Shown here piece after piece: positions 12,327 through 49,871 of a stretch of DNA of 64,000 nucleotides. Location: contig NZ_JACNME010000003.1 in assembly GCF_014270065.1 (NCBI RefSeq), positions 310,001-374,000 of the forward strand, written 5' to 3'. The position numbers and the translations under genes were made by a program. A model generated the notes under the pieces. The model saw nothing but the letters and a program-made list of their open reading frames with translations, was not told where the DNA came from and did not search any database. Source of the DNA: Quadrisphaera sp. RL12-1S. Lineage in GTDB: Bacteria > Actinomycetota > Actinomycetes > Actinomycetales > Quadrisphaeraceae. The stretch's first letter is position 1, and every line of letters begins with the position of its first letter.

Positions 12327-12533
12327 TCAACGACCCGATCGGCGCAAGAGCCGGACCACGCCGTCCAGTGCGCGCGCGACCTTGCCGGACTGGCGGGCGT
12401 ACCCCCCGGCGCGCCGGTCGACGAAGGCCTCGCAGTCGCACAGGGCGCAGTCCGCACCGCGGCGGTAGTGCTCGTGGGCGTCGCGCTGGTGCTCGCAGCG
12501 CGCGCAGGGGGCTGTCGTGCGGGCGTCGCTCAC
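12327..12533 (-). CDS. Small Cys-rich, zinc-ribbon-like protein
   Basis: 68 residues with Cys10-X2-Cys13 and Cys29-X2-Cys32-X-Cys34, several histidines between them, and a basic C-terminal tail (LRRSGR). The spacing suggests a small zinc-binding domain; the basic tail could contact nucleic acid or membrane. The GTG start at 12533 lacks a strong ribosome site. It stands alone between the polysaccharide operon and the lytic transglycosylase gene. I recognise no named family, and no function can be assigned. Confidence 0.6.
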   Translation of the reverse strand: MSDARTTAPCARCEHQRDAHEHYRRGADCALCDCEAFVDRRAGGYARQSGKVARALDGVVRLLRRSGR

Positions 12534-42692: not shown

Positions 42693-44774
42693 TCAGGAGG
42701 GGGCGCCGACCGCCTCGGCGGGGACGGCGCTGGGCAGCAGCACCCGCGCGGTCGTCCCCGTCTCCGGGGTGGACGCGATGACCAGCTGACCGCCGTGGTG
42801 CTCCACCAGCGAGCGGGCGATGGTCAGCCCGAGGCCGGCGCCCGGCACCGCGAGCGCCGTGGCGTTGCTGGCGCGGAAGAAGCGCGTGAACAGGCCCCCC
42901 TGCTCGGCCAGCGGGATGCCGATGCCGGTGTCCACCACCTCCACGAGGCAGTGGGGCCCGTCGCGCAGCACGCGCACGAGGACGGACCCGCCGGCCGGCG
43001 TGAACTTCACCGCGTTGGAGACCAGGCCCGCGAGCGCGCGACCGAGCGAGGCCGGGTCACCCGTGACCCGCAGGGCGCCGACCAGCTCGGCGTCGAGGTC
43101 GACGTCCACCTCCAGGTGCACGCCCGAGGCGGTGGCCGGGCCGCGGTGGGAGTCCACCACCTCCCGCACCAGGTCGCCGACGGCGACGGGCTCGTGGACG
43201 CCGCGCGGGGCGCCGTCCTCGATGTGGGACAGGGCGAGGAGGTCCTCGATGAGCACGCGCAGGCGCACGGTGTTGCGCTCGACCACGGCGAGCATGCGGT
43301 CGACGCCGTCGTCGAGGTCCCCGGCTCCTCCCTCGCGGAGCATCTCCACGTAGCCGGCGATGCTGGTCAGCGGGGTGCGCAGCTCGTGGGAGACGGTGGC
43401 GAGGAACGTGGACTTGCGCACGTCCAGCTCGCGCAGCTGCTCCACGAGCGCCTCGGAGCCGGCCAGCAGCCGGGTCACCACCACGGCCCGGCCGAGGTCG
43501 GAGGCCACCGAGCGCAGCAGGTCGACCTCCTCGTCGGTCCAGGTGCGCGGACCGTCGTGGGTGAAGACCGTCAGCGCCCCGACGGCGGCCTCACCGGCGC
43601 CCACGGGCACCAGCAGCACGGCGGTGGCGCCGGTGCGCTCGGCGAAGTCGACGGTGGCGGGCTCGGCGGAACCGCTGGCCACGAGGGCGGCCAGGTCGGT
43701 GACGGAGAAGTGGGCGTCGGCCTCCCAGACCCGCTGGAGCCAGTCCGGCAGGGCCTCGGCGACGTCACCGACGTCCTCCACCACGGGCGGTGCGCCCTCA
43801 CGGGCCCAGCTGCCCTGCAGCGGGGCCATCGCCGCGCCGGTGGGCCGGCTGGCCTGGTGGGCCCGACCGCCGGTGCCGCCGCGCGGGCCCCAGGGGGCTC
43901 CCTGGGCGCCGTCGACGAGCCGCACCCACGCCCGGTCCACGCCGAGGCCCTCCCCCAGCACCCGCAGGGCCTCGGCGAGCGAGCCCTGCGGGTCGATCGG
44001 GTCGCGGGCGAGCCGGCCCACCTCGCTGGCGAGGCTGCGGAGCGCGGCGGAGCGCTCGGCGGCGGTGCGGGTGCGGGCCCCCTCGTCGGCGAGGGCGTTG
44101 ACCCACCGGGCGACGGCACGCACCTCGGCCGGGCCGCGCCCGCTGTCGGCGCGGCGGGCGTGGTCACCGGAGGTGAGCGCCCCCAGCACGGCGGCGACGT
44201 CGGCCAGGGGCGCCACGAGCCCGCGGCGCACGCGGACGGCGAGGAGCAGCGTGAGGGCCAGAGCGCCCGCGAGGACCAGGCCGACGACGACGAGGGAGGT
44301 GTCGCGCACGCGCGCCTGCTGCTCCCGCAGGTCCGTCTGCTCGGCCGCCACGCCCTCGACGAGCGCCTGGTGGGCGGCGAGCAGGTCGCTCGGTGCGCCG
44401 GAGGTCTCGGCGGAGGGCGGTGCGGAGGGCGGTGCGGAGGGCGGTGCGCGGTGGACCCACGCCTGGGCGGCCGCCACCTCGCGCTCGACGGCCCGCTGCT
44501 CGGCGTCGGTGCGGGCCAGCGCCCGCAGCTGCCCACCCAGGGCCGAGACCTGGGCCGCCTGCGCCGCGGCGCCCTCGGAGGCCCCCGCGTCGGAGGCCGC
44601 CACCACCAGGGCGGTGCTCGTCTGGGCGAGGTCGTCGAGGCGGGCGGCGGCGGCGTGGCGGACGTCGCTCAGCAGCAGCGCCGCGGCTCCGGCCCCGGCG
44701 AGCAGCACCAGCAGGACCACGAGCAGCGCGAGCCAGCCGCGCAGGCCCACGGCGAGCGGCTGCGCGCCCCTCAC
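42693..44774 (-). CDS. Membrane sensor histidine kinase with GAF domain
   Basis: 693 residues. Two N-terminal helices (about 10-30 and 150-172) flank an extracellular helical sensor with a PPSA four-residue repeat. HAMP (about 172-235), GAF (about 240-430), HisKA with SHELRTPLTS (His463), and HATPase_c with N, G1 (VDTGIGIP) and G2 (GAGLGL) boxes follow. All catalytic motifs are intact. GTG 44774 overlaps the synthase stop as GTGA. Last gene of the receiver-HEAT-GT2-kinase operon, so it probably phosphorylates the receiver at 47595. Confidence 0.85.
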   Translation of the reverse strand: MRGAQPLAVGLRGWLALLVVLLVLLAGAGAAALLLSDVRHAAAARLDDLAQTSTALVVAASDAGASEGAAAQAAQVSALGGQLRALARTDAEQRAVEREVAAAQAWVHRAPPSAPPSAPPSAETSGAPSDLLAAHQALVEGVAAEQTDLREQQARVRDTSLVVVGLVLAGALALTLLLAVRVRRGLVAPLADVAAVLGALTSGDHARRADSGRGPAEVRAVARWVNALADEGARTRTAAERSAALRSLASEVGRLARDPIDPQGSLAEALRVLGEGLGVDRAWVRLVDGAQGAPWGPRGGTGGRAHQASRPTGAAMAPLQGSWAREGAPPVVEDVGDVAEALPDWLQRVWEADAHFSVTDLAALVASGSAEPATVDFAERTGATAVLLVPVGAGEAAVGALTVFTHDGPRTWTDEEVDLLRSVASDLGRAVVVTRLLAGSEALVEQLRELDVRKSTFLATVSHELRTPLTSIAGYVEMLREGGAGDLDDGVDRMLAVVERNTVRLRVLIEDLLALSHIEDGAPRGVHEPVAVGDLVREVVDSHRGPATASGVHLEVDVDLDAELVGALRVTGDPASLGRALAGLVSNAVKFTPAGGSVLVRVLRDGPHCLVEVVDTGIGIPLAEQGGLFTRFFRASNATALAVPGAGLGLTIARSLVEHHGGQLVIASTPETGTTARVLLPSAVPAEAVGAPS

Positions 44775-46375
44775 CGCCGGGCTCCGGTCAGCGGTCTGCC
44801 GGACCCGCGGGTGTCGGGCAGCTCCACCACACCGGTAGCCGCACCGGGTCGCGGACCGGCGGCGAGGCCTTGGCGGTCCATCGAGCCCCACACCTGCTGC
44901 TGCCCGCGCAGCAGGGACCACAGCCCCTGCACGCGCCACAGCGCCGTCAGCTGGCGGTGCCCGGCGTTCTCCAGCACGGAGGCCGCCAGGCCCCGGGCCA
45001 GGTCGCGCCAGCGCTGGGAGCGGTGGAAGGAGAGCTCCTCCACCAGCAGCGCCGCCACGGTGACCATGACCGCGTAGCCGTAGCAGAGCACCATGAGCAG
45101 CAGCGCCGCCCTCCAGGGCACCAGTCCGAAGGCCACCGCCAGCGGCGTGAGCACCACGCCCAGCAGCTCGATGACCGGGGCCACCAGCTCGAAGAGCACG
45201 TAGTACGGCAGCGCCAGCAGGCCGATGCGCCCGTACCGGGGGTTGCCGATCATGCCGCGGTGGCGCCACAGCGTCTCCGCCAGGCCCCGCTGCCAGCGGC
45301 GGCGCTGGCGGGCCAGCACGGCAGGCGTGGCGGGCACCTCGGTCCAGCTGGCGGGCTCGGGCACGAACACCACGCGGTGCTCGCGGCCGGCGTCGCGCAG
45401 GTGCCGGTGCAGGCGCACCGTCAGCTCGAAGTCCTCACCGATGCACGTGGGGTCCAGCCCGCCGACCTCCACGAGCACGTCGCGGCGGTACATGCCGAAC
45501 GCGCCGGAGATGAGCACCAGCGAGCCGAGCCTCGACCAGCCGGCACGCCCCACGCAGAAGGCCCGCAGGTACTCCACCACCTGGAAGCGGGCGGTCCAGC
45601 CGCGCGGCATCCGCACGTCCGCCACGCGGCCACCGACCAGGGCGGAGCCGTTGACGGCGCGCACGGCGCCGCCGGTGGCCACCACGCGGACCGGGTCGTC
45701 GGCGAACGGCCGCGACACGGTGAGCAGCGCGTCCGGGTCGAGCACGGAGTCGGCGTCGGTGATGCAGACCAGCTCGTGGCGCGCGGCGTTGATGCCGGCG
45801 TTGACGGCGTCCGCGCGGCCGCCGTTGTCCTTGCGGACCACCACCAGCGGCGCGCGCCCGCCGCGGGGCACGTGCACGCTGCGGACGGCGCCGCGCACGG
45901 GCACGTCCCGCGGGAGGCTGCGGGGCACCTCGACCAGGTCGAAGGCCTCGCGCAGCAGCGCGAACGTGGCGTCGGTGGAGCCGTCGTCGACGACGACGAC
46001 CTCGTGGCGCGGGTGGCGCAGCGCGAGCATGGCGCTCACCGACCCGACCACGGAGGCCTCCTCGTCGAACGCCGGCACCACCACGGACACCGACTGCGTC
46101 AGCGGCGAGGCGCTGGCGTCCTCCACGCCGCGGAAGCGCCCGCGGCGCAGGTAGCGGCCCATGTCCGCGCCGGCCAGGCCGATGAGCACGAGGTAGCTGG
46201 AGTTGATGGCCAGCACGTACAGCAGCACCGGCAGGCCGAGCAGCTGCACGAGCACCACCACCGTGCCGCGCACGGTGCCGCCGAGCAGCTCGGCGTGGGC
46301 CTGGACGCCGGCGGTGCCCACCGCCTCGAGGGCCGCCTGCGCGGCGGCCCCCACCTCGGGCCACAGCCCGCTCAC
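44771..46375 (-). CDS. Processive GT2 polysaccharide synthase
   Basis: 534 residues. An N-terminal helix pair, then a cytosolic GT-A domain with VVVDDGSTD (about 128), CITDADS (about 205), IGEDFE (about 312) and QRRRWQRG (about 360), the D,D,D,Q(Q/R)xRW set of processive synthases such as cellulose, hyaluronan and poly-GlcNAc synthases. At least three or four helices follow to form the export channel. No PilZ domain is present, so cyclic-di-GMP control is not evident; the coupled receiver and HEAT protein are the likely regulators. Polymer unknown. Overlaps both neighbours as GTGA. Confidence 0.85.
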   Translation of the reverse strand: MSGLWPEVGAAAQAALEAVGTAGVQAHAELLGGTVRGTVVVLVQLLGLPVLLYVLAINSSYLVLIGLAGADMGRYLRRGRFRGVEDASASPLTQSVSVVVPAFDEEASVVGSVSAMLALRHPRHEVVVVDDGSTDATFALLREAFDLVEVPRSLPRDVPVRGAVRSVHVPRGGRAPLVVVRKDNGGRADAVNAGINAARHELVCITDADSVLDPDALLTVSRPFADDPVRVVATGGAVRAVNGSALVGGRVADVRMPRGWTARFQVVEYLRAFCVGRAGWSRLGSLVLISGAFGMYRRDVLVEVGGLDPTCIGEDFELTVRLHRHLRDAGREHRVVFVPEPASWTEVPATPAVLARQRRRWQRGLAETLWRHRGMIGNPRYGRIGLLALPYYVLFELVAPVIELLGVVLTPLAVAFGLVPWRAALLLMVLCYGYAVMVTVAALLVEELSFHRSQRWRDLARGLAASVLENAGHRQLTALWRVQGLWSLLRGQQQVWGSMDRQGLAAGPRPGAATGVVELPDTRGSGRPLTGARR

Positions 46376-47598
46376 GCGCCGGCCCCCACGAGCGCACCGG
46401 CACCCGCGGGCGCGGCGGCCGCGGCGTCCCGCGCCGCGGCGTCGGCGCGGACGGACCCGACCTCCGCGGCGGAGGCCGCGGGCAGCACCTCGGCGAGCTC
46501 CGCGCAGACCAGCACCTCGTGGGCGCGGGCCACGGCCTGCGGCGAGCCGCCGGCGGACTGCCCGGCCACCTGCGCCAGCACCCTCGCGCCGGGGGCTCCC
46601 AGGGCGAGCAGGGCCGCCGCGGCGGCGGCGGCGAGGTGGGCGTCGCGGTCGTCCAGGAGCCCCCACAGGCAGCGCAGCGCGGTGGGGTCGCCCACCTCGC
46701 CGAGGGCCACCGCCGCGGCGCGGCGCACCGAGGCGGCGCTGGAGGGGCTGGTCGCGGCGCGCAGGGCGGAGGCCGACGTGGGCGCGCCGAGGCGGCCCAG
46801 GGCCGTGGCCGCGCGGGCGCGCACCGCGTCGGAGCCGTCGCGCAGCACGAGGTCCTCCAGGTCACCGGCGGCGGCGCTGGCGCCCAGGCGGCCCAGCACC
46901 TCGGCCGCCGTCAGCCGCACCAGGGCGCTCGGGTCGGACAGGGCGGTGCGCAGGGCGCCCGTCGCCGGGGCCCCGAGCAGCAGCAGCGAGCGGGCCACCA
47001 CGTCCGGCGGTGCGGCGGGGCGCTCCCCCGCCAGGGCGGCGAGCAGCGCCTGCGCGGCCCGGCCCGTGGCGTCGTCCTCGAGCACCCCCACGGCACCGGG
47101 AGCACCGGCGCGGCCCAGGGCCCGCGCCGCCACGAGCCGCACCTCGGCGTCGTCGTCGTGCAGCAGCGCGGCCAGCTCCGGCACCGCCGGGGCGTACGCG
47201 GCGGCACCGAGCAGCTCCGCCGCGGTGGCGCGGCGCACGGCGCTGCGGGCGTGCAGCCCCGCCCGCTCCCGCGTGATGACCCCGCGGACGGCGAGCAGCT
47301 CCACCAGCAGCCGCTGGCCATCACCGCGCACCTTGCCCAGCACCAGGAGCACGGCCGGCTCCACGGTGCGCCACGCGGCGGCGTCCAGGGCGGTGAGGGC
47401 GTCAGCGGCCGCGGTGGCCTCCTCCCCCTCCCCCACGGCCACCTCGAGGATGAGGGGGCGCAGCGGCTCGGCGACGGCGCGCCGGCGCGCCTCGCGGCGC
47501 GCCCGCAGCCCGCGGACGGCGGCGATCGCCAGCGCCAGCCCCAGCACCAGCGCGGAGACGAGCACCAGCCCGGCGACGACGACGGCGAGGAAGGTCAC
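46372..47598 (-). CDS. Membrane-anchored HEAT-repeat protein
   Basis: 408 residues. One N-terminal helix (LAVVVAGLVLVSALVLGLALAI) anchors a cytoplasmic domain of about nine HEAT repeats, for example VPELAALLHDDDAEVRLVAARALG and later LRTALSDPSALVRLTAAEVLG. HEAT arrays are protein-binding scaffolds. Lying between a receiver gene and a synthase gene, with GTGA overlaps to both, it is a candidate adaptor through which the receiver controls the synthase. No enzymatic motif is seen. Confidence 0.8.
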   Translation of the reverse strand: MTFLAVVVAGLVLVSALVLGLALAIAAVRGLRARREARRRAVAEPLRPLILEVAVGEGEEATAAADALTALDAAAWRTVEPAVLLVLGKVRGDGQRLLVELLAVRGVITRERAGLHARSAVRRATAAELLGAAAYAPAVPELAALLHDDDAEVRLVAARALGRAGAPGAVGVLEDDATGRAAQALLAALAGERPAAPPDVVARSLLLLGAPATGALRTALSDPSALVRLTAAEVLGRLGASAAAGDLEDLVLRDGSDAVRARAATALGRLGAPTSASALRAATSPSSAASVRRAAAVALGEVGDPTALRCLWGLLDDRDAHLAAAAAAALLALGAPGARVLAQVAGQSAGGSPQAVARAHEVLVCAELAEVLPAASAAEVGSVRADAAARDAAAAAPAGAGALVGAGA

Positions 47599-47969
47599 GG
47601 CCGCGCCCGTCCCAGCACGGCCTGCACGCGGCTGACCAGCTCGCGGGGGCTGAAGGGCTTGACCACGTAGTCGTCGGCACCGGCGGCGAAGCCGCTGGCC
47701 ACGTCCTGGTCCTGCGCGCGCGCCGTGAGCATGATGACCGGCAGCGCGGCGGTGACGGGGCTGCGGCGCAGCTCGGCGCAGACGTCCAGACCCGACAGCC
47801 CCGGCATCATGAGGTCGAGCACCACGATGTCCACGCCGCCGGCGCGGGCGGCGTCCAGCGCCGCGGCGCCGTCGGGCGCAGAGCGCACCTCGTAGCCGGC
47901 CTGCGTGAGCTTGAAGGCGACGAGCTCGCGGATGTCGAGGTCGTCGTCAGCGACGAGGACGGTGGTCAT
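47595..47969 (-). CDS. Single-domain response regulator
   Basis: 124 residues, receiver only. The acidic pair Asp8-Asp9, phosphoacceptor Asp52 in VVLDLMMPG, Thr in MLTARA and the conserved lysine in YVVKPFSP are all present. No output domain, so it must act by protein contact, most likely with the HEAT protein encoded next. ATG 47969 has GGAGG six bases upstream. First gene of the operon, driven by the promoter at 48055-48081. Confidence 0.92.
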   Translation of the reverse strand: MTTVLVADDDLDIRELVAFKLTQAGYEVRSAPDGAAALDAARAGGVDIVVLDLMMPGLSGLDVCAELRRSPVTAALPVIMLTARAQDQDVASGFAAGADDYVVKPFSPRELVSRVQAVLGRARP

Positions 47970-48001
47970 GGTGCCTCCGGTCTGGGGCGGGCCTGCGGGC
48001 T

Positions 48002-48034
48002 GCTGGCGGGGTGCTGGCGGGGTGCTGGCGGGGT
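48002..48034. repeat. Three tandem 11-bp repeats in the receiver gene leader
   Basis: GCTGGCGGGGT three times without variation, between the predicted promoter and the ribosome-binding site of the receiver gene. Confidence 0.8.
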
Positions 48035-48054
48035 GCTGCGGCGTCTGGACCGGC

Positions 48055-48081
48055 ATCGGCAGCGCACCCCGCCGCCTTGAG
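48055..48081 (-). promoter_or_regulatory. Motility-sigma-type promoter of the receiver-synthase operon
   Basis: Minus strand CTCAAG (complement of 48076-48081), 15 bases, GCCGAT (complement of 48055-48060). This resembles sigma-28/FliA-type promoters, whose -10 element is GCCGA-rich, not the housekeeping consensus. Confidence 0.5.
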
Positions 48082-48194
48082 CCGATCGGGTGACGGGCCG
48101 GCTTCCGCGGCCGGCCGGTGGTGCCCCGGCGCGCCGCGTTCCACCGGGGGACGCTCCGGGGGGACGCTGGGTGACCCGATCGGCTCAAGGCGGC
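48071..48194. repeat. Perfect 21-bp inverted repeat holding both divergent -35 boxes
   Basis: Arms 48071-48091 and 48174-48194 are exact complements, separated by 82 bases. Each arm contains CTCAAG preceded by ACCCGATCGG when read toward its own gene. Confidence 0.9.
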
Positions 48195-48210
48195 CGCGCC
48201 AGGCGCCGAA
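48184..48210 (+). promoter_or_regulatory. Motility-sigma-type promoter of the divergent histidine kinase
   Basis: CTCAAG (48184-48189), 15 bases, GCCGAA (48205-48210), the mirror image of the minus-strand promoter. GTG 48258 follows after about 40 leader bases. Confidence 0.5.
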
Positions 48211-48257
48211 CAGGGGTGAGGACGGCCGCGCCCGCGGCCCGCGCAGGAGGTCTCCCC

Positions 48258-49871
48258 GTGTCCAGCAGCCCGGTCGAGCAGGAGGCCGCGCAGGCCGCCC
48301 CGCCCGCGCCGGACGCCGCCGACGCCCCCCGCGCCGCGCTCCTGCGTCGCGTGCGCGCGGCCACCGGCTGGCCGTGGGCGTCCCTGGAGCTGGCCGAGCA
48401 CCTGCTGCCGACGTCCCTGGGCGCCCTGGCGGCCGAGCGCGGGACCGCCGTGCACCTGCCCGACGCCGCGGACGCCTCCGCAGCCCCGGACCTGGCCGGC
48501 AACCCCTGGGTGGACGGCCGCATCGCGCGCACCCGCGCGCTCGCGGCGGTGCCGGTGACCGGTCCCGGCGGCGACCTGCTCGGCGTGCTGGTCGCCCGCG
48601 ACGACGCCCCGCACGCGCCGAGCGCGGAGCGGGAGCAGGCCCTGGCCGACCTCGCGGCCCTGGCCGCGGGAGCGGTGATGGCCCACCGCCAGTCCCGCGC
48701 GCTGGGCGGTCTCGCCGCGGCGGTCGCGGCGGCGGACCAGCGCGTGGCGCTCGCCCAGGCAGGTCTGGCGGACCGGCACGACCTGCTCGAGGCGGTGCTC
48801 GACACCGCGGATGTCGGCGTGGTCGCGCTGGACGCCAGTGGGCGGGTGAGCGTGCTGAGCCCCCTCGTGCGCGCGTGGGCGGGGCTGCCCGACCACCTCG
48901 AGGCGGGTGCCGCGGCCCGCGCGGCCACCACCGCGCTGTGCGCGGACGCGGCCGGCACCGTGCTGTCCGCGGTCCGCGGGCCCCTGCTCGAGGGGCTCGC
49001 GGCCGGTGGCGAGTCCGAGTCCGAGGTCGTGTTCGCCAGCGCCGCGGGGGCGGTGGTGACGTGCGTGTGCCGGACCCGGGTGCTGACCACCGCCACCGGC
49101 GCGCGCGCCGGCGTGGTCGCGTCCCTGACCGACGTCACCGCCGAGCGCGCGGCGCGGGCCGAGCTGGAGCGGTCCAACGCGGAGCTGGAGGCCTTCGCCG
49201 GCATCGCCGCGCACGACCTGCGCTCCCCCCTCACCGTGGTCGACGGCTACCTGGAGGTCCTCGAGGACGACGCCGCCGCCCGCGGCGACGCGCGCGCCGT
49301 CGGCTGGGCGACCACCGCCCGGCGCAGCGCCGGCCGCATGGCCTCCCTGCTGCAGGGGCTGCTCGCGTACGCCACGGCCGGGGCCCCCGAGACCGCCCCG
49401 CGCCAGCAGGTGCCGCTGAGACCGCTGCTGGAGGCGGTGCTGGCGGACCTGGCCGTCCCCGAGCGCGCCGTGGTCGAGCTGCCGGACGCCTCCCCCGTGC
49501 TCGTGGGAGACCCGGTGCAGCTGCACCAGCTGCTGAGCAACCTCGTGGGCAACGCCCTCAAGTTCACCCGCGCCGGCGAGCCCGCAGTGGTGGTGTGCGG
49601 TGCCTCGGAGCTGCCGGGCGCCTGGGAGCTGGTGGTGGCCGACCACGGCCCCGGTGTCCCGCCCGACCAGCGCGGCGCCGTGTTCCGCGCCTTCGAGCGG
49701 GGGTCGCACCGCAGCGGCGCCGCCGCGGGGCGGCAGCACGGCCGGGTGGAGGGTCACGGTCTGGGGCTGGCCACCGCCGCGCGCATCGTCGCCCGGCACG
49801 GCGGCCGGATCACCCTCGACGAGACCCCCGGTGGCGGCCTCACCGTGCGGGTCCGGCTCCCCCGTCCGTGA
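48258..49871 (+). CDS. Cytoplasmic sensor histidine kinase with GAF and PAS domains
   Basis: 537 residues, no membrane helix. GAF-like (about 35-150), PAS-like (about 178-290), HisKA with AAHDLRSPLT (His319) and HATPase_c with DHGPGVP and GHGLGLATA boxes. GTG 48258 has CAGGAGG at seven bases. Divergent from the receiver operon with a mirror-image promoter, so it should be co-expressed and may signal to the same orphan receiver. The stop codon lies in the right copy of the 17-bp repeat. Confidence 0.83.
   Translation: MSSSPVEQEAAQAAPPAPDAADAPRAALLRRVRAATGWPWASLELAEHLLPTSLGALAAERGTAVHLPDAADASAAPDLAGNPWVDGRIARTRALAAVPVTGPGGDLLGVLVARDDAPHAPSAEREQALADLAALAAGAVMAHRQSRALGGLAAAVAAADQRVALAQAGLADRHDLLEAVLDTADVGVVALDASGRVSVLSPLVRAWAGLPDHLEAGAAARAATTALCADAAGTVLSAVRGPLLEGLAAGGESESEVVFASAAGAVVTCVCRTRVLTTATGARAGVVASLTDVTAERAARAELERSNAELEAFAGIAAHDLRSPLTVVDGYLEVLEDDAAARGDARAVGWATTARRSAGRMASLLQGLLAYATAGAPETAPRQQVPLRPLLEAVLADLAVPERAVVELPDASPVLVGDPVQLHQLLSNLVGNALKFTRAGEPAVVVCGASELPGAWELVVADHGPGVPPDQRGAVFRAFERGSHRSGAAAGRQHGRVEGHGLGLATAARIVARHGGRITLDETPGGGLTVRVRLPRP

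Follow-up and report, generated by a model that had tools for sequence, protein, structure and literature searches.

A predicted divergent promoter pair and its genes

The window, a stretch of 64,000 nucleotides corresponding to C3:310001-374000 of a Quadrisphaera genome (4.62 Mb, 27 contigs), derives from an actinobacterium with coccoid cells. It contains a minus-strand operon that encodes a response regulator, a HEAT-repeat protein, a glycosyltransferase and a histidine kinase, the gene ends of which overlap, and a plus-strand histidine kinase gene. A pair of predicted promoters, embedded in an inverted repeat, sits between these two units:

42693..44774, minus strand, GAF-containing sensor histidine kinase, at the end of the minus operon
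44771..46375, minus strand, glycosyltransferase family 2 (GT2), with weak sequence similarity to hyaluronan synthase among others
46372..47598, minus strand, HEAT-repeat protein, its start overlapping the 3′ end of the response regulator gene
47595..47969, minus strand, single-domain response regulator (receiver only; PF00072, E 4e-31), first gene of the minus operon
near 48045-48049, minus strand, predicted transcript start on the response-regulator side
48081-48055, minus strand, predicted promoter of the response-regulator operon, CTCAAGGCGGCGGGGTGCGCTGCCGAT (−35 CTCAAG 48081-48076, N15, −10 GCCGAT 48060-48055)
48071..48091, left arm of the 21-bp inverted repeat
48174..48194, right arm of the 21-bp inverted repeat
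48184-48210, plus strand, predicted promoter of the histidine kinase gene, CTCAAGGCGGCCGCGCCAGGCGCCGAA (−35 CTCAAG 48184-48189, N15, −10 GCCGAA 48205-48210)
near 48217, plus strand, predicted transcript start on the kinase side
48258..49871, plus strand, divergent histidine kinase (HisKA and HATPase; GAF below cut-off), AGGAGG followed by a GTG start

A sequence-only reading of this DNA had reported CTCAAG-N15-GCCGA(T/A) divergently on both strands, and when the sequence was re-read both the coordinates and the N15 spacing proved correct. The same reading had placed the two −35 boxes within perfect 21-bp arms with 82 bases between them, which was confirmed by a repeat search: the longest exact inverted repeat at the promoter pair is 21 nt, ACCCGATCGGCTCAAGGCGGC, and its arms are separated by 82 nt. 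The window contains two exact CTCAAG-N15-GCCGA(T/A) matches, compared with none in 100 dinucleotide shuffles.

The response regulator, HEAT and GT2 genes (42693-47969) form an operon that is widely conserved in Actinobacteria, often with a histidine kinase downstream. The GT2 glycosyltransferase was matched at E values up to 2e-140 in 39 of 78 loci (Quadrisphaera loci included), 36 of which also carry the regulator gene; the genomes G004, G005 and G007 gave no strong glycosyltransferase match. Going by the domains only, one might guess that the module serves surface polysaccharide during a swimming stage. Within the leader of the response-regulator operon, at 47995-48038, an 11-bp tandem repeat is present in about four copies; it was not seen in the aligned relatives.

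Genomic copies of the motif and candidate sigma factors

Across the genome, CTCAAG-N15-GCCGA(T/A) occurs exactly at 18 sites (both strands), compared with none for a reversed-pattern control, and freeing the last base raises the number of exact sites to 31. Allowing one mismatch gives 381 sites vs 174 for the control; as this excess is only about two-fold, the strict pattern is the informative form and the relaxed matches are largely background. Contig C14 carries a flagellar/chemotaxis cluster, in which Pfam matches identify flhA (PF00771), flagellin (PF00669), FlgD, FliM, FlgN, CheB and MCP genes, and contains six intergenic CTCAAG-N15-GCCGA sites, located as follows:

11 nt upstream of flhA
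95 nt upstream of flgB
11 nt upstream of a glycosyltransferase gene
11 nt upstream of a gene without a Pfam match
309 nt from the next called gene start
77 nt upstream of a FliA-like sigma factor gene (GCCGAC form)

The flagellin, flgN, cheB and MCP genes of C14 have related, late-type promoters of the form TCA-N16/17-GCCGAT. Eleven exact sites outside C14 and the window were inspected, and in nine cases a called gene begins 9 to 126 nt downstream, the targets including genes for an MCP, for EAL and GGDEF proteins, for a T2SSE (PilT-like) ATPase and, by eye, for an NlpC/P60-like protein; one site (L031) falls inside a called gene, and for another (L032) the distance to the next start is 202 nt. 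Further copies at flagellar or chemotaxis genes, for which the sequence-only reading had proposed a genome scan, were thus found at flhA, flgB and MCP genes, and in the GCCGAC form at the fliA-like gene. The promoter pair most likely belongs to a regulon of flagellar, chemotaxis, PilT-like and c-di-GMP genes.

The two promoters are retained to different extents in relatives. On the response-regulator side CTCAAG-N15-GCCGATG is kept in all six genus genomes, with the spacer letters diverged, and on the kinase side CTCAAG-N15-GCCGA is kept in five of the six, having been lost in G008. In G003, from another genus of the family, both sides have weaker elements (TTCAGG-N14-GCCGAC and GTCAAG-N15-GCCGAT). 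In G001 two neighbouring regulator genes are preceded by CTCAAG-N15-GCCGA, in G006 TCA-N16/17-GCCGAT stands 557 nt before the regulator, ahead of an apparent other receiver gene, and the G002 contig ends short of the response-regulator promoter region. It is hardly credible that the motifs reflect chance in GC-rich DNA, or are remnants without promoter use. The merely two-fold one-mismatch excess over the control could be read in that way, but the exact pattern gives 18 sites against none in the control and none in the window shuffles, and it is conserved across six genomes despite the diverged spacers.

To extend the comparison, 260 nt upstream of the regulator gene was scored with a matrix built from 11 hand-chosen sites of the Quadrisphaera flagellar cluster; in G001 and G006, where the operon has two regulators, the promoters lie beyond this range. 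At least 12 bits was reached in seven of nine family loci. The accompanying flhA search took 30 of the loci L205-L244 plus G105; it left out L205, L206, L229 and L233 (Quadrisphaera kin), together with L220, L227, L230, L235, L240 and L244 (partial, same genome, or remote), among which L227 and L240 do carry a regulator gene. Outside the family, 5 of 13 flhA-positive vs 1 of 18 flhA-negative genomes reached at least 12 bits (Fisher one-sided 0.034), and 7 of 13 vs 3 of 18 reached at least 9 bits (0.036); a rank test on all outside-family scores was not significant (0.11). Judged by these comparisons, the link between the response-regulator promoter and motility is firm within the genus and only suggestive outside it.

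Two sigma factors are candidates for reading these promoters. A FliA-like gene lies inside the C14 flagellar cluster, its best NCBIfam match being FliA/WhiG with 165.5 bits, short of the 189.6 cut-off, while the WhiG orthologue is encoded on C18 (416 bits against the NCBIfam WhiG equivalog, cut-off 343), flanked by what appear by eye to be recombinase and RpsB genes. When the C18 sigma factor was compared by sequence with PDB chains, 6pfj and 6pfv (titled RNA polymerase sigma factor) came nearest, which we take to be Streptomyces WhiG with RsiG, and a chain named WhiG (7lq4) also matches. The published motif of RsiG, a c-di-GMP anti-sigma factor, had no match in 0.56 Mb of loci from this genome (overlaps counted), at most one-eighth of the genome. 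The view that a motility-type sigma factor drives both units, advanced from the window sequence, is supported by the genome copies, by the presence of the fliA-like gene (below the NCBIfam cut-off) and of the WhiG orthologue elsewhere, and by conservation in the genus. Taken as promoters, the pair are ordinary members of the sigma-28 class, the sigma factor most likely being FliA and/or WhiG.

Separating FliA from WhiG through genomes that lack one of them fails. A FliA-like match of the C14 kind was not found in G012 or G001 and is a fragment in G002; these three assemblies comprise 180 to 610 contigs and flhA is present in 13 of 13 family genomes, and therefore absence of FliA from the three is not established. 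With regard to known systems, the WhiG of Rubrobacter radiotolerans, for which control of type IV pili and dgc/pde genes has been suggested, was studied with the flagellar consensus TAAA / GCCGATAA (PMC8325347). In the accessible text of that study the targets resemble those described here in their GCCGAT-type −10, a flagellar-clade sigma factor and a regulon that reaches a pilus-type ATPase and GGDEF/EAL proteins. They differ in that the −35 is TAAA there and CTCAAG in Quadrisphaera (PMC8325347), where the flagellar cluster and an operator-like box at the −35 are added.

A box abutting the −35 element

Immediately upstream of CTCAAG, both window promoters have ACCCGATCGG. Similar sites are known from Streptomyces, in which BldM homodimers bind TCACcCgnncGgGTGA and, in S. 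venezuelae, BldM-WhiI heterodimers bind TGnnCCGnnCGGGTGA, footprinted in vitro, at Group II targets (PMC4125116). Two such boxes were identified in the window:

48078..48093, minus strand, BldM-WhiI-type box TCACCCGATCGGCTCA, overlapping the −35, no mismatch to the reversed Group II consensus TCACCCGnnCGGnnCA
48172..48187, plus strand, BldM-WhiI-type box TGACCCGATCGGCTCA, overlapping the kinase-side −35, one mismatch

The fixed upstream positions match reversed TGnnCCGnnCGGGTGA at 10 of 10 on the response-regulator side and 9 of 10 on the kinase side, and only these ten are independent evidence since the last CA of the site comes from the −35. When the consensus was searched with two mismatches the window was not enriched (25 observed vs 23.9 expected); the box signal resides in a near-exact match at a fixed place.

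The composite element, TCACCCGnnCGG abutting CTCAAG, is present at early flagellar promoters of the Quadrisphaera genome and missing from late ones. Exact ACCCGNNCGGCTCAAG has six genome copies, all with GCCGA at N15, which comprise the two window promoters, flhA, the flagellar-cluster glycosyltransferase gene, the fliA-like gene and, at C1:369816, a transglutaminase-like gene for which no role in motility is known. Variants occur at flgB, where the box is one base farther from the −35, at fliM (TCCCCCG box, CTCAAC and GCCGAC, N15 kept) and at flgD (GTCGAT, N15 kept). The ten fixed positions of TCACCCGnnCGG, at an offset of 0 or 1, were scored at 19 of the 31 CTCAAG-N15-GCCGA sites of this genome. 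Scores of at least 9 of 10 were obtained at four of six flagellar-cluster sites, the other two scoring 3 and 7, at both window sites and at one of 11 others; at offset 0 the background amounts to 118 of 526,878 positions with a score of at least 9 (the sites themselves included). Six relatives have 31 intergenic CTCAA(G/C)-N15-(G/A)CCGA sites in their flagellar regions, and 15 of these score at least 9. It is the operator-like box abutting the −35, unnoticed in the sequence-only reading, that ties the promoter pair to the early flagellar promoters.

The same box, abutting each −35, explains the inverted repeat. Of the 21 arm bases, 16 are one composite element, ACCCGNNCGG plus CTCAAG, that recurs at flagellar promoters, and the remaining bases, GCGGC, are not conserved; on these grounds the repeat is interpreted as the unit of box and −35 occurring twice, in divergent orientation. 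Perfect 21-bp arms with 82 bp between them, as seen in this genome, could also mean that the repeat itself is the functional unit, through looping, a cruciform or a shared operator for both units, a reading to which we give very little credence. Arm identity shrinks in G010 and G009, the kinase-side arm of G011 and G012 has no box although its −35 and −10 are retained, conservation is limited to box and −35, and single copies stand at flagellar promoters. The repeat as a functional unit was rejected on this decay in relatives. The response-regulator-side box matches all ten positions in six of six genus genomes, whereas the kinase-side box scores 9 in G000, 9 in G009, 8 in G010, 5 in G011 and 4 in G012; with G008, which has no site there, the kinase-side box is gone in three of the six.

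The box could alternatively be an extended recognition element of the FliA or WhiG holoenzyme, contacted by sigma region 4 or the alpha-CTD, with no separate regulator. Its nearly fixed position in this genome, 0 or 1 bp from the −35, is consistent with such an element, which we nevertheless consider improbable on several grounds. Ten of the 11 non-flagellar CTCAAG-N15-GCCGA sites (at MCP, GGDEF, EAL, PilT-like and other genes) score no more than 6 of 10, the late-type promoters of the cluster have no CACCCGnnCGG within 60 nt, and the box agrees with a regulator site that was footprinted independently (PMC4125116). In addition, the box stands 31-34 nt from some −35 elements in G004 and G006, which favours a separable regulator site, and some early promoters have a second half-site, with at least six of seven bases matching, inside the spacer.

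The distant boxes were observed in G004 (L176), where CACCCGnnCGG lies 31-34 nt upstream of the −35 at four flagellin genes, and in G006 (L178 or L179), where it has the same placement at a fliD-like promoter. Because these flagellin and fliD-like promoters have a distant box, the division between early and late genes is weakened: the early-only rule holds in the Quadrisphaera genome and not strictly in relatives. The second half-site, TCACCCG, lies at +10 from CTCAA in the spacer between −35 and −10, about two helical turns after the box. It occurs at C14 flgB and fliM, at two more promoters of that cluster (L018 and L019), and in the flagellar regions of G009, G010, G011 and G004, 22 bp downstream of the first half-site (23 at flgB), and the window pair is without it. 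This placement suggests that a second dimer may bind at some early flagellar promoters.

Within the class, the full composite was found in 5 of 394 genomes (6, 4, 1, 1 and 1 sites) and the reversed control in none. In L181 (G023) and L184 (G224), from two other families, it lies by eye upstream of a PilT-like gene (342 and 161 nt, respectively). One other genome has it 73 nt upstream of a response regulator gene, further sites precede other genes, and one of the four composite sites in G040 is inside a called gene. Elsewhere in the window, an intergenic sequence at 12333-12348, ACCCGATCGGCGCAAG, is one mismatch from the composite of box and −35 and has no GCCGA −10 at N15.

BldM-like and WhiI-like regulators and the proposed mechanism

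The genome has 25 GerE-domain matches, and the proteins of 24 of these loci were compared with a BldM reference sequence not drawn from a database; the L286 protein was not among them and, by eye, its sequence does not look closer to that reference. The L289 protein is BldM-like, with 65.8% identity over 202 aa to the reference sequence, compared with 39.5% for the next best GerE protein by score. No curated BldM model is among the best 25 of its 82 NCBIfam matches, and no PDB chain named BldM or WhiI matched L289 at E values up to 1e-10. The L291 protein is WhiI-like: its receiver has neither the pocket Lys nor one of the paired Asp residues and has Glu in the phospho-Asp column. The L291 gene adjoins DUF3000 and HemE-like genes, a neighbourhood that we assume to be the Streptomyces whiI gene order, and the tentative WhiI identity is based on the receiver features together with this gene order. 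The published WhiI receiver likewise is missing the conserved Lys and one paired Asp (PMC4125116). Among the best 25 NCBIfam matches of each, the BldM-like and WhiI-like proteins hit generic response-regulator models below cut-off.

Both genes have sigma-28-like elements upstream. About 50 nt before the BldM-like gene (L289:2161-2136, minus strand; G000:C1 near 229 kb) is CTCAGG-N14-GCCGAT, and by eye GTCAAG-N15-CCCGAT precedes the WhiI-like minus-strand gene starting at 2088 of L291 (G000:C4 near 147 kb), with a BldM-type palindrome, GCACCCGGCCGGGTGC, between this element and the start codon.

The mechanism that we favour, and regard as probable, is that the sigma-28-class promoter pair would be co-activated by a BldM/WhiI-type regulator, so that the module is switched on with the early flagellar genes. 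A FliA or WhiG holoenzyme would read both window promoters, and the BldM-like regulator, either by itself or paired in a BldM-WhiI-like heterodimer, would bind the box TCACCCGnnCGGnnCA. With its centre some 4 nt ahead of the −35, at roughly −37, the dimer may contact polymerase and co-activate, the bound regulator acting as an activator rather than as a repressor. The response regulator, HEAT protein, glycosyltransferase and two histidine kinases would then be co-expressed with the early flagellar genes. Because the last CA of the site comes from the −35, the box alone does not separate the heterodimer from a BldM homodimer, for which it is a poor palindrome, or from another NarL-type regulator. 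That the reader of the box is such a different NarL/LuxR-type response regulator, a GerE protein other than BldM or WhiI, is unlikely; in its favour, the genome has 25 GerE-domain matches and the family favours similar inverted sites. It is countered by one protein being far nearer to the BldM reference than the rest, recognition helix included, and by the box containing the whole published BldM half-site TCACCCG (PMC4125116).

The Quadrisphaera arrangement resembles that at Streptomyces Group II targets in that reversed TGnnCCGnnCGGGTGA matches the box, BldM-like and WhiI-like proteins are encoded, and the whiI-like gene is preceded by a WhiG-type promoter (PMC4125116). In contrast to the Group II sites described in that source, the Quadrisphaera site overlaps a sigma-28-type −35, the genes are flagellar and polysaccharide-signalling ones and the host is non-mycelial. 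Furthermore, the promoter in front of the bldM-like gene is sigma-28-like, in contrast to the BldN-dependent one of Streptomyces bldM (PMC4125116). The aer promoter of E. coli is likewise a sigma-28 promoter that relies on an upstream-bound activator, although in the available part of that report the activator is CRP, centred at −49.5, and not a NarL-type site near −37 (estimated) that overlaps the −35 (PMC2859248). In Actinoplanes missouriensis a FliA-family sigma factor and TcrA control sporangium and zoospore genes, and the system is comparable in pairing actinobacterial FliA-family sigma factors with an orphan response regulator (PMC12691653). The TcrA box is described there as a direct repeat, GCA(A/C)CCG-n4-GCA(A/C)CCG, while the Quadrisphaera box is inverted (PMC12691653); considered as the upstream element, it was rejected on seeing, by eye, inverted CCG-nn-CGG and no GCA(A/C)CCG direct repeat.

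What appears to be new, on the sequence comparisons made here, is that flagellar genes in a non-mycelial actinobacterium combine two fused elements, a sigma-28-type promoter and a BldM/WhiI-type box; no literature link of BldM or WhiI with flagellar genes was found in the titles and abstract openings among the matches listed. In the accessible text of an earlier study, WhiI is held to be absent from simple motile species and the role of developmental genes in Kineococcus is left open (PMC4255298). The Quadrisphaera data make the question of what such genes do in simple motile species testable, and the locus together with the flagellar cluster offers a concrete answer of that kind, namely the box fused to early flagellar and polysaccharide-signalling promoters. 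It is conceivable, and we put it forward tentatively as a proposal that may well not hold, that BldM/WhiI and a FliA or WhiG sigma factor co-activate early flagellar genes in Quadrisphaera, and perhaps in other motile actinobacterial cocci, with bldM and whiI being themselves sigma-28-driven in a feed-forward loop. If true, this would explain what sporulation genes do in simple cocci, and the cascade that governs sporulation in Streptomyces would have arisen by co-opting an older circuit for motility and dispersal. The data suggest that swimming, surface-sugar signalling and sporulation have old control machinery in common.

Several of the remaining GerE proteins occur in clusters, at L298 and L303-L305 on C20 and at L302 and L306 on C17, and have degenerate or shortened receiver-like parts. 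These clusters are perhaps lineage-specific paralogues.
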